This document shows, piece after piece, positions 5,663-10,000 of a stretch of DNA of 10,000 nt. Position numbers and translations under genes: made by a program. This DNA is from Rheinheimera sp. (GTDB taxonomy: Bacteria > Pseudomonadota > Gammaproteobacteria > Enterobacterales > Alteromonadaceae). Where the stretch lies: NCBI RefSeq assembly GCF_020217005.1, contig NZ_JAIWOI010000080.1, positions 1 through 10,000 on the forward strand, in the 5' to 3' direction. Positions within the stretch are counted from its first letter, which is position 1, and every line of letters begins with the position of its first letter. Below the pieces are notes generated by a model. The model saw only the letters and a program-made list of their open reading frames with translations, was not told where the DNA came from and searched no databases.

Positions 5663-5717
5663 AAAATGGGGTCAGATCACATTGTTAACTGTTAACAATG
5701 TGATCTGACCCCATTTT
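5663..5717. repeat. Perfect 55-bp palindrome, REP/MITE-like element and possible terminator
   Basis: Two 27-bp arms (5663-5689 and 5691-5717) are exact reverse complements around a single T at 5690. The arm runs AAAATGGGGTCAGATCAC and then ATTGTTAAC; the innermost GTTAAC occurs on both sides of the centre. Elements built on a GGGGTCAGA core recur between genes in several gammaproteobacteria and are often associated with REP-associated tyrosine transposases; I recall this and cannot check it here. With A4 on the left and T5 on the right the fold would also terminate transcription in both directions, which suits its place nine bases after the CxxC gene stop. No transposase gene is in the window and no second copy was seen. 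Confidence 0.85.
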
Positions 5718-5796: not shown

Positions 5797-6801
5797 ATGA
5801 AACTGTTTTGGTTACTGCTGCTGTTTTTTTATCCGGGTCAGGTCCTGGCAAACAGCTGGCCAGGTTTTGCCAAACAGCAGTCCTGCCTTGAACTTTATCC
5901 TGATTTTCAACAGCTGGTGAATGACGTACGTCAACACAAAGCCTGGTATACAGCTGAGCATTGGTTAGCCCCCTGGTTATTGCCTAAACAACAATTCCAA
6001 CACACACAGCAACTGGAATGTGCCCAACTGGAATACCAATCAGACAGTTTTTTAGTTCAGGCCTGGGGCTTACAGCCAAAAGCCCAATCTAATGAAAAAT
6101 GGCCGGTGATTATCTACAACAGAGGTGGTAATTCGGCGTTGGGCCGATTGGATTTTGTCTCTGTGTTACGTCAACTTAGCCCTTTGGCGCAACAAGGTTT
6201 CATTGTATTAGCCAGTCAGTACCGTGGCTCTGTGCCACAAGACCAGCAGACCTATGGCAAAGACCAGTTTGGTGGCGCTGATGTGCGTGATATTCATCAG
6301 TTGATAGAACTGGCAAAAAAACTGCCTACGGCTGACGCAGATAACATATTTTTATACGGGATCAGCAGGGGCGGCATGATGAGTTATCTGACAGCACGGC
6401 AACGTGACGATATCCGCGCTATGGCTATCACCGGAGCCCCAACAAATTTAGTCACAGAATTGCCACGAAAACCTGAAATGGAGTTAATTTTCCGTAGTCT
6501 GATCCCTGACTACGACCAAAACAAAGTGAAGGAACTGGAACAACGGTCGGTAATATATTGGGCGGAAGAATTGCCCGCTACTTTGCCTATTTTGTTGATC
6601 TACGGTGGTCAGGACCAAAGGGTGCATCCGGATAATTCCAAACTGCTGGCCGCCAAATTGACCGGGCTCAAAAGGCCGGTGCGACTGATAGAGTTTAAGG
6701 ACGCTGATCATTTGCTGACTGACTACAAAGAACAGGAACGCCAGGCCATGCTCAGCTGGTTTCGTCAGCATCAAGTGAATGCCGCCACAGCTGCGCCTTA
6801 A
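5797..6801 (+). CDS. Exported alpha/beta hydrolase, prolyl-oligopeptidase (S9)-like
   Basis: A 334-residue secreted serine hydrolase. A clear signal peptide (MKLFWLLLLFFYPGQVLA) should be cut before Asn19, placing the enzyme in the periplasm or outside. The fold shows the order expected of dienelactone-hydrolase/S9 enzymes: an oxyanion-loop region NRGGNSALG, the nucleophile elbow GISRGG with Ser190, the acid in GGQDQRVHP (Asp273), and the His in DADHLLTD (His305), so the catalytic triad looks complete. Cys30 and the Cys of LECAQLEY could form a disulfide after export. The ATG is preceded by AGGGGA at six bases. The gene is set apart from its upstream neighbour by the palindrome and overlaps the convergent cyclase gene by four bases. 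The substrate, whether a peptide or an ester, cannot be read from the sequence. Confidence 0.9.
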   Translation: MKLFWLLLLFFYPGQVLANSWPGFAKQQSCLELYPDFQQLVNDVRQHKAWYTAEHWLAPWLLPKQQFQHTQQLECAQLEYQSDSFLVQAWGLQPKAQSNEKWPVIIYNRGGNSALGRLDFVSVLRQLSPLAQQGFIVLASQYRGSVPQDQQTYGKDQFGGADVRDIHQLIELAKKLPTADADNIFLYGISRGGMMSYLTARQRDDIRAMAITGAPTNLVTELPRKPEMELIFRSLIPDYDQNKVKELEQRSVIYWAEELPATLPILLIYGGQDQRVHPDNSKLLAAKLTGLKRPVRLIEFKDADHLLTDYKEQERQAMLSWFRQHQVNAATAAP

Positions 6802-7853
6802 TCCGCCAACTCTACTCTGTCACGGCCAAGCTCTTTGGCTTTGTACAACGCCTGATCGGCTCTTTGTACCAACTGATCCACTGCGCTGTCTGCTGTACTG
6901 GCAATACCGATACTCAGGCTGCTCTCCATGCCAGACTCTTGCATCTGCTGTTTAAACTGTTGCTGCACTCTGAACGCCAAATGCGTTAAACCTTCAGCAT
7001 CTGTATCTGTAGCAGCCAGCACAAATTCATCTCCTCCCAATCGGCAGGCGATATCACTTTGACGTGCAACGGCAATCAATGCCTGGGCCAAATGCTTCAA
7101 TGCCAGGTCCCCAGTTTCATGGCCGTATTGATCGTTGAGCTTTTTAAACTCATCAATATCAATCATCATCAGTGCTAAAGGTGTCCCCTGAGTGTTAGCC
7201 TGCAGCACGTATTGCTCAAATTTAATCTGGAAGGCCCGCCTATTGTCTAATCCCGTTAACACATCGGTATGAGCCAGTGTTTCCATTTGCTGTGCTTGCT
7301 GGTAAAGCTTATCTATCGTTTTCTCTGCAACCTTGACCTTTTTTTGTTGCAGTTGCATTTGCTGATCCAAAGCCATTTGATAAGCCAGAGCGTCAGCAAT
7401 CAGTTTTAAACTGCAGAACAAATGTTCTGAAATGACTAACCGCTCTCTGCTGGCCCCACATAAAGTACCTATAGTTTTACCGCCGGATAATACCGGTACG
7501 GCGAAAAAACTCTGCATACCTAAAGCGGCGGCATTTGAGTTGGGAAATAATTCGGGGATAACATCAGATTGCTGTAAATTTGCGTCAAACAACAAGCGAC
7601 ACATAGAGTCAGACCATTCGACAACAGCGCCTTCCTGTAAAGGAATGGTCATTTGTCCTTCCACCAAAACTACCTGCTGAGTCAAAGCACGCCAATCAAT
7701 CCGTGTTAAGAAAGCTGTATCCAAAGCTGTTAAATGCCGCACTAACAGCAACAGCGGTCTGGCGGACTGTTCAAGAGCTACACTGGTATAACTTTGACGT
7801 TGTGGCATAAAGTCTCTGATTGACGATCTGAGTACAGATCCTTGTAGCAGCAT
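6798..7853 (-). CDS. GAF-GGDEF diguanylate cyclase
   Basis: This enzyme makes the second messenger cyclic di-GMP from two GTP and is probably cytoplasmic, since no membrane segment is visible. In the 351-residue reading a GAF-type sensor domain covers about residues 30-160 (with SDSMCRLLF and FFAVPVLSGGKTIGTLCGAS). A glutamine-rich coiled-coil linker covers 160-192, and the GGDEF domain 190-348. The domain has the DVLTGLDNRR opening, metal-site IDIDEFKKLND and an intact GGDEF at 273-277. An RxxD inhibitory site (R264-D267) stands five residues before it, so activity and product feedback are both expected. The start is uncertain: the ATG at 7853 lacks a clear ribosome site, while the ATG at 7808 (residue 16, MPQRQS) has GAG at five bases and keeps the whole GAF domain. 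The signal sensed is unknown. It is convergent with the hydrolase gene. Confidence 0.93.
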   Translation of the reverse strand: MLLQGSVLRSSIRDFMPQRQSYTSVALEQSARPLLLLVRHLTALDTAFLTRIDWRALTQQVVLVEGQMTIPLQEGAVVEWSDSMCRLLFDANLQQSDVIPELFPNSNAAALGMQSFFAVPVLSGGKTIGTLCGASRERLVISEHLFCSLKLIADALAYQMALDQQMQLQQKKVKVAEKTIDKLYQQAQQMETLAHTDVLTGLDNRRAFQIKFEQYVLQANTQGTPLALMMIDIDEFKKLNDQYGHETGDLALKHLAQALIAVARQSDIACRLGGDEFVLAATDTDAEGLTHLAFRVQQQFKQQMQESGMESSLSIGIASTADSAVDQLVQRADQALYKAKELGRDRVELAD

Positions 7854-7928
7854 TTGCAGTTAATTATGAGTTTTGTACGTGCTTTTTAGCGAACAGAGCA
7901 CAATAAGGGTAATTATTTTTGCGCTAGC

Positions 7929-7955
7929 TGTCGAAATGCCAGAGACCAAACCGAC
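7929..7955 (+). promoter_or_regulatory. ECF42-type sigma factor promoter (TGTCGA-N17-CGAC)
   Basis: TGTCGA at 7929-7934 is followed after 17 bases by CGAC at 7952-7955. From published work on ECF42 sigma factors in Streptomyces I recall TGTCGA as their -35 and CG(A/T)C as their -10 motif. Both occur here at normal promoter spacing, directly ahead of an operon that ends in an ECF42-type sigma gene. Transcription would start near 7961, with a leader of about 25 bases that carries the strong AAGGAG site at 7974-7979. Autoregulation is therefore likely, but not shown. Confidence 0.7.
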
Positions 7956-7985
7956 TAACCTTGACATCAACACAAGGAGAGACTT

Positions 7986-8414
7986 ATGACTCAGTCAATT
8001 CAACAGTTAGCAACAAGCTGGGCTGCGGCAGTAGCAAGCCAGGATCTGACGCGGATTATGACGTTTTATGCCGATGAACTTGTTGCCTATGATGCTGTGG
8101 CGCAATTGCAGTTTACTGGTAAAGCAGCCTATCAGGCCCATTGGCAAAAATGCCTGGAATTCTGCTCAGGCGGTCATTCCAAATTTGAACTTCGGGATCT
8201 GAAGATCCAACAAAACGATGCGATCGGTTTTAGTCATGCTTTGGTGTATTGCGAGGGAAGCAATGAAAAAGGTGAGACTCAGGGTTGCTGGATGCGGCTG
8301 ACTCAAGGCTGGCAAAAACAGCAGGACAACTGGCGTATTTTTCATGACCATTTTTCTGTACCTTTTGATATGGTATCTGGCGCTGTGTTGTTTGAACTGA
8401 CCCCGGATCTTTAA
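7986..8414 (+). CDS. NTF2/SnoaL-like fold protein
   Basis: A 142-residue cytoplasmic protein of the NTF2-like superfamily. Visible features are the opening helix with QQLATSWAAAVASQDLTRIMTFYADELVAYD, the middle helix GKAAYQAHWQKCLEF, and the closing strands with GCWMRLTQGWQKQQDNWRIFHDHFSVPF. That order is typical of SnoaL/YybH-type proteins, which act as small-molecule enzymes or binding domains; nothing here identifies a substrate. An excellent AAGGAG site lies six bases before the ATG. It is the first gene after the ECF42-type promoter and is followed 25 bases later by two DGPF genes and the sigma gene, so it belongs to that operon. Its role in the response is unknown. Confidence 0.85.
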   Translation: MTQSIQQLATSWAAAVASQDLTRIMTFYADELVAYDAVAQLQFTGKAAYQAHWQKCLEFCSGGHSKFELRDLKIQQNDAIGFSHALVYCEGSNEKGETQGCWMRLTQGWQKQQDNWRIFHDHFSVPFDMVSGAVLFELTPDL

Positions 8415-8439
8415 CAAGAATGACAAAAGGAAAGCTGCA

Positions 8440-8784
8440 ATGAAATACTTATGCTTAGTCTACAGCGACGAAAAACTCCTGCATTCGTTACCAGAGAGCC
8501 CAAAAGACGAAGAGTGTTTTGCTTATGCCTCTGCAGTGCAACAGAGCGGTCGGATGCTGGCTGCCGAAGCGCTGCAACCCATAGATACGGCCACCACAGT
8601 TCGGGTGCGATCAGGTAAAACCTTGTTAACAGATGGTCCCTTTGCCGAAACTAAAGAACAATTGGCTGGCTTTTATCTGGTTGAAGCAAAAGATTTAAAC
8701 GAAGCCATCCAGTTGGCAGCTGGTATTCCGGCCGCCCGCGTAGGCTCTGTCGAAGTTCGCCCCATCCGTCAACTGGAGGTTTAA
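8440..8784 (+). CDS. YCII/DGPF-family protein, first copy
   Basis: A 114-residue protein of the YCII-related (DGPF) family, which has a dimeric ferredoxin-like alpha/beta fold. It opens with the usual strand MKYLCLVYSDE, has RSGKTLLTDGPFAETKEQL in the middle with the signature DGPF at 65-68, and ends with VGSVEVRPI, the typical last strand. Length is normal. AAAGGA stands eight bases before the ATG. The family is strongly linked to ECF42-type sigma factors in many bacteria, and its biochemical activity is not established; its low resemblance to catalytic YciI leaves enzyme activity open. It is separated by only one base from the second copy and is probably translationally coupled to it. Confidence 0.93.
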   Translation: MKYLCLVYSDEKLLHSLPESPKDEECFAYASAVQQSGRMLAAEALQPIDTATTVRVRSGKTLLTDGPFAETKEQLAGFYLVEAKDLNEAIQLAAGIPAARVGSVEVRPIRQLEV

Positions 8785-8785
8785 T

Positions 8786-9193
8786 ATGAGATTTATGTTA
8801 CTGATGATACCTAAAGGCTATGAAAGTGCTGCGCCTGGCACTATGCCTGAAACCGATGCAGTTGATGCTATGATGGACTACAACAGAAAACTGCAGGACG
8901 CTGGTATTTTACTCGGCTGCGAAGGCTTGCATCCGCCGTCTATGGGCGCTCGTGTCAGTTTTAATTCAGGGAAAGCACTGGTTACTGACGGACCTTTTAC
9001 TGAAACAAAGGAAGTGCTGGGAGGTTTTTGGATGATTCAGGTCCCCTCCAAAGCTGAAGCCATTCGCTGGGCCAGTTTATGCCCTGCCAGTGATAATGAA
9101 GTGATCGAAGTACGCCAGGTTCAGGAAATGGAAGATTTTTCTGAAGATATTCAGCAGATAGCTGCTGATTTCGTCACGATGCAAAGCAGTTAA
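8786..9193 (+). CDS. YCII/DGPF-family protein, second copy
   Basis: A 135-residue paralogue of the gene just upstream. It shows the same architecture: first strand MRFMLLMIPK, then the helix with DAMMDYNRKLQDAG, the block SGKALVTDGPFTETKE with DGPF at 68-71, and last strand EVIEVRQV. It differs from the first copy by an acidic C-terminal tail of about 20 residues (MEDFSEDIQQIAADFVTMQSS) beyond the usual domain end. A strong GGAGG at 8775-8779, inside the end of the first copy, precedes the ATG by six bases. The two proteins share the DGPF block but are clearly diverged elsewhere, so this is an old duplication. They may form a heterodimer, which is inference. Confidence 0.93.
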   Translation: MRFMLLMIPKGYESAAPGTMPETDAVDAMMDYNRKLQDAGILLGCEGLHPPSMGARVSFNSGKALVTDGPFTETKEVLGGFWMIQVPSKAEAIRWASLCPASDNEVIEVRQVQEMEDFSEDIQQIAADFVTMQSS

Positions 9194-9197
9194 ACTG

Positions 9198-10000
9198 TTG
9201 AACAATCAGGTGACAGCCGAAGCTATTTCGGCTTTGTATCAGCAGGAAAGCCGCAGGGTACTCGCCACTCTGATCCGCTTGCTGGGTGATTTTGAACTGG
9301 CCGAAGAGGCGCTGCAGGACGCATTTACCTGTGCTTTGCAGCAGTGGCCTGTTGATGGATTCCCTGCCCAACCCAGAGCCTGGCTGGTGTCCGCTGGGCG
9401 TTTTAAAGCCATAGATAAAATCCGTCAGCAGCGGACTCAGCGCCAGCATCAGCAGCAGTGGCATTTTGAGCAGGATGACGACAGTGCGGTTTGTCAGCTA
9501 CAGGACCTGACTGGTCATGATTGGCAGGACGATGAACTGCGGCTGATCTTTACCTGCTGTCACCCGGCTTTATCCAACGAAGCTCAAGTAGCGCTGACGT
9601 TACGCGAAATTTGTGGCCTGACAACAGAGCAAATTGCTAAAGCCTTTTTAACCAACCCTGTCACCATAGCCCAGCGTATTGTCAGGGCAAAAAACAAAAT
9701 CCGTGATGCGGCTATCCCCTACGAAATTCCAACTCAGGAGCAATTACCACAACGGCTGGATGCGGTACTTAAAGTCATTTATCTGTTGTTTAACGAAGGC
9801 TATAGCCAAAGTTCAGGCGATCAGTTGTTGTGTCAGGAACTTTGTGTTCAGGCGATACGGCTCGGCTTCTTATTATTGGAGTTGCAACCTGAAGCTGAAA
9901 CTATGGGTCTATTGGCATTGCTGTTATTGCAACAATCCAGACGCCATGCCAGGACCACGGCAGAAGGCGACCTGATTTTACTGGCCGATCAGGACCGAAG
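9198..10000 (+). CDS. ECF42-type extracytoplasmic-function sigma factor with C-terminal extension (3' partial)
   Basis: A sigma-70 family factor of the long ECF type that partners with DGPF proteins. Counted from GTG 9210, region 2 covers about residues 5-75 (QESRRVLATLIRLLGDFELAEEALQDAF, then RAWLVSAGRFKAIDKIRQQ). Region 4 covers 108-165, with the signature DDELRLIFTCCHPALSNEAQ and TTEQIAKAFLTNPVTIAQRIVRAKNKI. The extension characteristic of the group follows (VIYLLFNEGYSQSSGD at 189-204, LCVQAIRLGFLLLEL, LLALLLLQQSRRHAR) and is cut at residue 263; about 150 residues are missing. There is no ATG in frame after the stop at 9159. Candidates are TTG 9198 and GTG 9210; the latter reads MTAEAISALY, the usual family opening. 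Neither has a good ribosome site, so coupling to the upstream stop at 9193 is likely. No anti-sigma gene is visible. Confidence 0.93.
   Translation, partial: MNNQVTAEAISALYQQESRRVLATLIRLLGDFELAEEALQDAFTCALQQWPVDGFPAQPRAWLVSAGRFKAIDKIRQQRTQRQHQQQWHFEQDDDSAVCQLQDLTGHDWQDDELRLIFTCCHPALSNEAQVALTLREICGLTTEQIAKAFLTNPVTIAQRIVRAKNKIRDAAIPYEIPTQEQLPQRLDAVLKVIYLLFNEGYSQSSGDQLLCQELCVQAIRLGFLLLELQPEAETMGLLALLLLQQSRRHARTTAEGDLILLADQDR

Follow-up and report, generated by a model that had tools for sequence, protein, structure and literature searches.

The closest described counterpart of the locus studied here is the ECF42 sigma factor RpoE10 of Sinorhizobium meliloti. According to the available text of PMC6180224, RpoE10 promoters with mapped starts have the form TGTCG(G)-N17-CGTC, in agreement with earlier predictions for group ECF42, and both mapping methods put the SMc01149 start 9 bases downstream of CGTC. 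An ECF42 promoter of this form in a proteobacterium is already known from that work. The same text describes a motif before SMc01151-rpoE10 that overlaps a mapped start; SMc01151 was not raised by over-expression of RpoE10, so the motif before the sigma operon showed no RpoE10 response. Elsewhere, the portion of PMC8999054 available describes three ECF42 factors of Streptomyces venezuelae (Sven_0747, Sven_7131, and Sven_4377), places ECF42 regulation in the TPR extension, suggests that the YCII protein takes part, and states that interaction partners are still to be identified. It also names ECF-10 of Pseudomonas putida, an ECF42 factor from the Gammaproteobacteria with links to oxidative stress and antibiotics. 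A Xanthomonas ECF42 is active in S. meliloti (PMC10880074), and ECF42 function across species is thus already in print. The available portions of PMC9023288, PMC8103513, PMC7730460, and PMC9205884 hold nothing further on the ECF42 promoter. Our literature search, outside which most subscription journals lie and which is therefore no proof of novelty, returned nothing joining Rheinheimera with extracytoplasmic function sigma and nothing on DGPFAETKE.

The window (the whole 10,000-nt stretch of Rheinheimera DNA that was analyzed) shares with the S. meliloti system, as far as the available text describes it, a 17-base layout, a YCII gene before the sigma gene, and glyoxalase-like genes as targets, which in Rheinheimera are predicted. 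A further S. meliloti target is a predicted hydrophobic-ligand binder, annotated as SRPBCC at a like locus in our set (L179). The window differs from S. meliloti in its TGTCGA and CGAC elements, in having two DGPF genes, and in opening the operon with an NTF2-like gene. With the S. venezuelae factors, so far as that source describes them, it shares the TPR-type C-terminal extension and a YCII/DGPF neighbor, although these belong to another phylum. For Streptomyces ECF42 factors, work by Liu in 2018 is said to have given the motif TGTCGA with CG(A/T)C. A gammaproteobacterial ECF42 comparison is offered by P. aeruginosa plasmid pMKPA34-2 (L190), which likewise combines a sigma gene with a pair of YCII genes and one NTF2-like gene, along with glyoxalase-family genes. 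One motif copy precedes the YCII pair and another the NTF2 gene. Unlike in the window, sigma is the first gene there, and the two units led by a motif, YCII-YCII and NTF2 with glyoxalase-family genes, lie behind it and do not include it.

Organization of the locus

The candidate promoter and the genes around it are arranged as follows.

6798..7853, - strand: divergent GAF-GGDEF gene (PF00990, E 9.1e-44; PF01590), outside the operon, on the other side of a 132-base gap
7929..7934, + strand: predicted ECF42 promoter, -35 element TGTCGA, unchanged in all 11 orthologous operons and recurring at ECF42 loci
7952..7957, + strand: predicted -10 element CGAC with the next TA, at exact 17-base spacing, with none of the 6 bases varying among the 11 orthologs
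7964, + strand: predicted transcription start A, within a few bases, by analogy with the S. meliloti SMc01149 start
7974..7979, + strand: ribosome-binding site AAGGAG, mostly kept in the ortholog alignment
7986..8414, + strand: NTF2-like (SnoaL_3) protein of 142 aa, operon gene 1 (PF13474, E 3.9e-15)
8440..8784, + strand: YCII/DGPF protein 1 (PF03795, E 1.2e-23)
8786..9193, + strand: YCII/DGPF protein 2 (PF03795, E 1.2e-21)
9198..10000, + strand: ECF42-type sigma factor, cut at the window end (Sigma70_r2, Sigma70_r4_2, DUF6596)

The gaps within the operon measure 25, 1, and 4 bases, and the two PF03795 genes lie directly 5' of the sigma gene. The window's own sigma copy ends at residue 267. 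PF04542 and PF08281 (sigma regions 2 and 4) are found in this part and in a full-length ortholog (L066, 415 aa), which contains DUF6596 (E 2.5e-34) and the whole extension, with TPR matches only below Pfam's cut-offs. The window, which ends inside the sigma gene, contains no anti-sigma gene, and a scan for sigma-70-like promoters found no TTGACA/TATAAT-like pair at 7700-8419 on either strand. Elsewhere in the window, an intergenic perfect inverted repeat at 5668-5712 has 22-base arms (GGGGTCAGATCACATTGTTAAC and its complement) and a 1-base loop; flanked by A- and T-rich stretches, it is a mobile-repeat or terminator-like element.

An earlier, sequence-only reading had proposed a TGTCGA and CGAC pair 17 bases apart, and the pair is indeed present on the + strand, with CGAC at 7952-7955. 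It is the single match to TGTCGA-N16..18-CGWC in the window, and 30 bases lie between its end and the NTF2-like ATG at 7986. Shuffled windows gave a mean of 0.01 matches, with one match reached in 2 of 200 shuffles, a control that flatters the motif. The window's own genome (3.92 Mb in 379 contigs) holds 33 matches to this loose pattern, eight of them N17 with CGAC, a rate at which a single strand of the 132-base gap would be expected to hold 0.00013 matches. Reversing the letters of the loose pattern yielded 240 matches versus the 33 real ones, which counts against giving the bare genome count meaning. Because reversed words have other base neighbors, this control is a poor yardstick, and altered spacers and the opposite strand were relied on instead. 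Following genes were sorted for 30 of the 33 loose matches; the rest, one on contig C371 and two on C375, lack the extended motif described below. The only other match to CTGTCGAA-N16-CGAC in this genome, on C100, was set aside since the site faces away from the following gene, which by eye is probably a cold-shock gene.

Conservation in orthologous operons

Conservation is a stronger test than the number of matches in a genome. We compared the window with 10 other operons of the genus with a sigma identity of at least 82% (n = 11). All 11 have TGTCGA-N17-CGAC at a distance of 30 to 33 bases upstream of the NTF2 start, bearing out the expectation that the motif would be kept in orthologous loci. 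The 10 bases of the motif, and the TA after them, do not vary in any row, whereas invariance in the spacer is limited to 1 of 17 bases, in the upstream sequence to 7 of 60, and in the surroundings as a whole to 13 of 97 (Fisher p 3e-8 for motif versus surroundings, a guide only because the ortholog rows are related). Eight named intact operons (L031-L037 and L042) also show the motif; these come from the same genomes as L064-L067 and L069-L072 and were excluded from locus counts. In Rheinheimera mesophila (L078; G003:C20; its duplicate L044 was likewise left out of the locus counts), the operon is missing, the sigma gene is truncated with internal stops, and the site before an MFS gene is kept. 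Either a recent loss or a gap in the assembly probably explains the absence of the operon there.

These patterns bear on whether the match arose by chance or belongs to the control region of the divergent GGDEF gene. Other short blocks in the gap, such as TACGT and AATAA, are also conserved, as a shared control region might lead one to expect. Against this stand the 0.00013 matches expected in the gap, the invariance of the motif next to a free spacer, and the presence of the same motif before unlinked genes. The explanation is already contradicted by these findings, and we give it next to no credence.

Recurrence at ECF42 loci of other bacteria

ECF42-type loci were collected by the presence of DUF6596 (PF20239). 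Counting the window's genome each time, this domain occurs in 16 of 22 genus genomes, 20 of 229 class genomes, and 62 of 299 phylum genomes. The set took in 17 of 17 places in the genus outside the window's genome and 20 of 22 in the class. For the phylum, 98 places were listed, of which 80 were fetched, 4 were already in the set, and 14 were left out. A plasmid collection supplied 15 loci, read among 60 listed of 141 matching records.

Of the first 43 loci, 27 carry TGTCGA-N17-CGWC on the sigma strand and 0 carry it antisense, and other spacers from 10 to 24 reach at most 3 of 43 on either strand. These loci are not independent, as 17 are from the genus and account for 14 of the 27 matches; the other 13 matches are from outside the genus. 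Across the 80 additional phylum loci, N17 counts on the sense and antisense strands are 22 and 5 for TGTCGA with CGAC, 25 and 0 for TGTCGA with CGTC, and 26 and 4 for TGTCGG with CGWC. Other spacers reach up to 13 of these 80 loci, so single N17 matches there can be chance. Scanning the 15 loci from the plasmid collection turned up the two published S. meliloti promoters near rpoE10 (L179), as well as two motif copies in each of four cyanobacterial loci.

The recurrence has bounds. An exact and sensibly placed pair is found in only three of nine actinobacterial loci (L180, L181, and L189), one-mismatch versions are at about the right place in an acidobacterial locus and an Acidimicrobiales locus (L040 and L043), and the exact pair is missing at more distant sigma genes, for example L075, L077, and L094-L098. 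The earlier suggestion that promoter recognition is conserved across phyla consequently stands for other proteobacteria and Cyanobacteria, where the pair is found at ECF42 loci, and is overstated if extended to all phyla, given the actinobacterial count. As judged from these loci, the predicted ECF42 promoter form is widely kept, yet non-uniform. Two of the distant loci, L075 (G006:C60) and L077 (G009:C13), represent a second ECF42-type gene in a genome of the genus, with 33-36% identity to that of the window. TGTCGA-N17-CATC is at about the right place in L075 and L098.

Because 10 of 10 motif bases are invariant and the exact N17 spacing recurs at ECF42 loci, we predict with high confidence that 7929-7957 is an ECF42 promoter. 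The sequence-only assignment of such a promoter to the DGPF-DGPF-ECF42 operon, with its NTF2 gene in first position, is supported by the same recurrence.

We also considered a specificity code between promoter and sigma factor. Mutual information between sigma residues and base 6 of the -35 or base 3 of the -10 seemed strong in 101 sequences. The code was dropped because a tree of 99 sequences contains only 7 changes of the -10 base and 4 supported independent pairs, and relatedness may be the source of the association.

A predicted regulon in the genus

The operon orthologs suggested an extended motif, TGTCGAW-N16-CGACTA, which was scanned in the 22 genus genomes. There are 38 sites, compared with three when the spacer is one base shorter and 26 matches in the reversed-letter control, again a poor yardstick. 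All but one of the sites (37 of 38) precede one of six kinds of genes: an operon of the window's kind (11 sites), a parallel NTF2-first operon (3), a glyoxalase-like gene (12), an MFS gene (7), a DUF4287 gene (3), or an AHSA1 gene (1). The remaining site is inside a long coding frame. Sorting by following gene covers 35 sites, the other three being operon sites (window, L068, and L071), and families were checked on one protein per kind (PF00903, PF07690, PF14117, and PF08327). The earlier reading had proposed to check by a genome scan whether sites precede DGPF, NTF2 or glyoxalase-like genes, and sites do precede a glyoxalase-like gene once the motif is sharpened to its extended form.

The distribution of sites tracks that of the sigma gene. 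Each of the 38 extended sites belongs to a genome that carries an ECF42 gene, although in R. mesophila that gene is truncated. Sites occur in 15 of the 16 genomes with an ECF42 gene versus none of the six without (Fisher p 9e-5) and, when operon sites and the coding match are excluded, in 13 of 16 versus 0 of 6 (p 0.001); the ECF42 genome G016 has no extended site. This association argues against the promoter being read by another ECF sigma, such as one of group ECF41, as does the fact that the TGTCGA-N17 pair goes with ECF42 genes in other bacteria. A reader of group ECF41 would fit the mapped promoter of S. meliloti rpoE9 (ECF41), which, in the text available from PMC6180224, contains TGTCAC and CGTC. 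We find such a reader very improbable and retain the ECF42 sigma as the predicted one. Useful additions to what has been described are this predicted multi-gene regulon and the finding that genomes lacking the sigma gene have no sites.

In the window's genome, three extended sites are found, located before the operon, a glyoxalase-like gene (C177:3392-3420), and an MFS gene (C93:4327-4355). Placement of the C177 site inside a 163-aa frame was rejected, as the frame is probably spurious and the site precedes the glyoxalase-like gene. A perfect site lies 46 to 62 bases upstream of that gene in 12 of 12 orthologs (at least 82% identity), all from ECF42 genomes. Genome G013, with a related ECF42 locus, has a homolog of 63% identity with TGTCGA-N17-CGTC and a second, partial copy with no site. 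Homologs of 58-63% identity in three ECF42-less genomes, which may not be true orthologs, have no site, nor do 11 paralogs of 40-46% identity. Considering these comparisons, the glyoxalase-like gene is a highly probable target of the sigma factor.

Of 14 genomes with the MFS gene, nine have a perfect site before it, one has a site with one mismatch, and four have none; one further copy, the fifteenth, runs into the end of its contig. Searched at E 1e-80, the six ECF42-less genomes and G016 yielded no MFS ortholog. On this pattern, the MFS gene of the window's genome is predicted to be a target with good, if lesser, probability. For DUF4287, three of three close orthologs have the site, and four more distant homologs, two of them from ECF42-less genomes, have none.

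Proposed mechanism, possible autoregulation, and position of the sigma gene

Our main reading, to which we assign a probability of roughly 0.8, is that 7929-7957 is read by the operon's own ECF42 sigma factor, which would raise its own level and also serve unlinked targets. Region 4 of the sigma factor would recognize TGTCGA, and its region 2 would recognize CGAC(TA). If the distance from CGTC to the S. meliloti SMc01149 start is carried over, transcription would begin near A7964, rather than at the 7961 previously expected, and yield a leader of ∼22 bases with AAGGAG followed by the NTF2-like gene. Four tightly spaced genes follow the promoter, with sigma at the end, and we therefore infer that the sigma gene would be cotranscribed with the others and that active sigma would increase its own supply, amounting to positive autoregulation. 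The same sigma would switch on the unlinked glyoxalase-like and MFS transporter genes in this genome and, in some relatives, DUF4287 or AHSA1 genes.

A census of layouts addressed how commonly a site is positioned to drive the sigma gene. Of 139 loci processed with a crude gene finder, 135 were usable, with L045, L063, L078, and L183 excluded for having no usable sigma frame; some UP calls in the census may be chance (L086, L089, and L142). In 88 of 135 loci, a site heads a same-strand chain of genes ending in sigma. This is the commonest layout and also that of the window, and with control spacers of 13-16 and 18-21 the same chain is counted 3 to 13 times. The site is only behind the sigma gene in 12 loci and only before a divergent gene in three, and 32 have no site by the census rule. 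The window's layout fits feedback, but layouts differ among the 135 loci, so that feedback is no constant feature across the family. Nor is layout proof of function, given that the like-placed motif in S. meliloti did not respond to RpoE10.

Alternatively, the ECF42 promoter could serve the NTF2 and DGPF genes, with sigma mainly supplied from an internal or constitutive promoter and no meaningful feedback. Such an arrangement would be in line with S. meliloti rpoE10, which is reported, in the available text of PMC6180224, not to be self-activating behind its like-placed motif, and with the 15 of 135 loci in which the only motif is unable to drive the sigma gene. Two weak sigma-70-like matches within the operon (8420-8449 and 8847-8874) could provide the internal promoter, but two such matches are at the level of shuffled sequence (mean 2.2). 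The tight gaps of the operon (25, 1, and 4 bases) and the predominance of the sigma-last order behind a site (88 of 135) also speak against a separate supply. We judge this alternative unlikely while allowing it appreciable weight. Positive autoregulation by the operon's own sigma is plausible and, on balance, somewhat more likely than not, as gene order and spacing fit it.

More tentatively, the ECF42 factor of Rheinheimera may govern a small, self-amplifying, chromosome-wide regulon whose sites come and go with the sigma gene. It would comprise the NTF2-DGPF-DGPF-sigma operon and the glyoxalase-like, MFS, DUF4287, and AHSA1 genes. Across the family, sigma may switch between positions inside the regulon and outside of it, where it is first or divergent, so that feedback would be an evolvable option. 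The existence of both kinds of layout makes the role of feedback testable. A compact predicted regulon with an enzyme and a transporter, in a genus that is not known to be harmful, offers concrete genes for assaying the signal to which ECF42 factors respond.

In four loci on Nostoc and Leptolyngbya plasmids (L183-L186), two motifs 81-83 bases apart face a divergent YCII/DGPF gene. They point away from the sigma gene, which is therefore not behind the motif in these loci. Three other loci (L080, L111, and L125) have two ECF42-type motifs in tandem before one set of genes.
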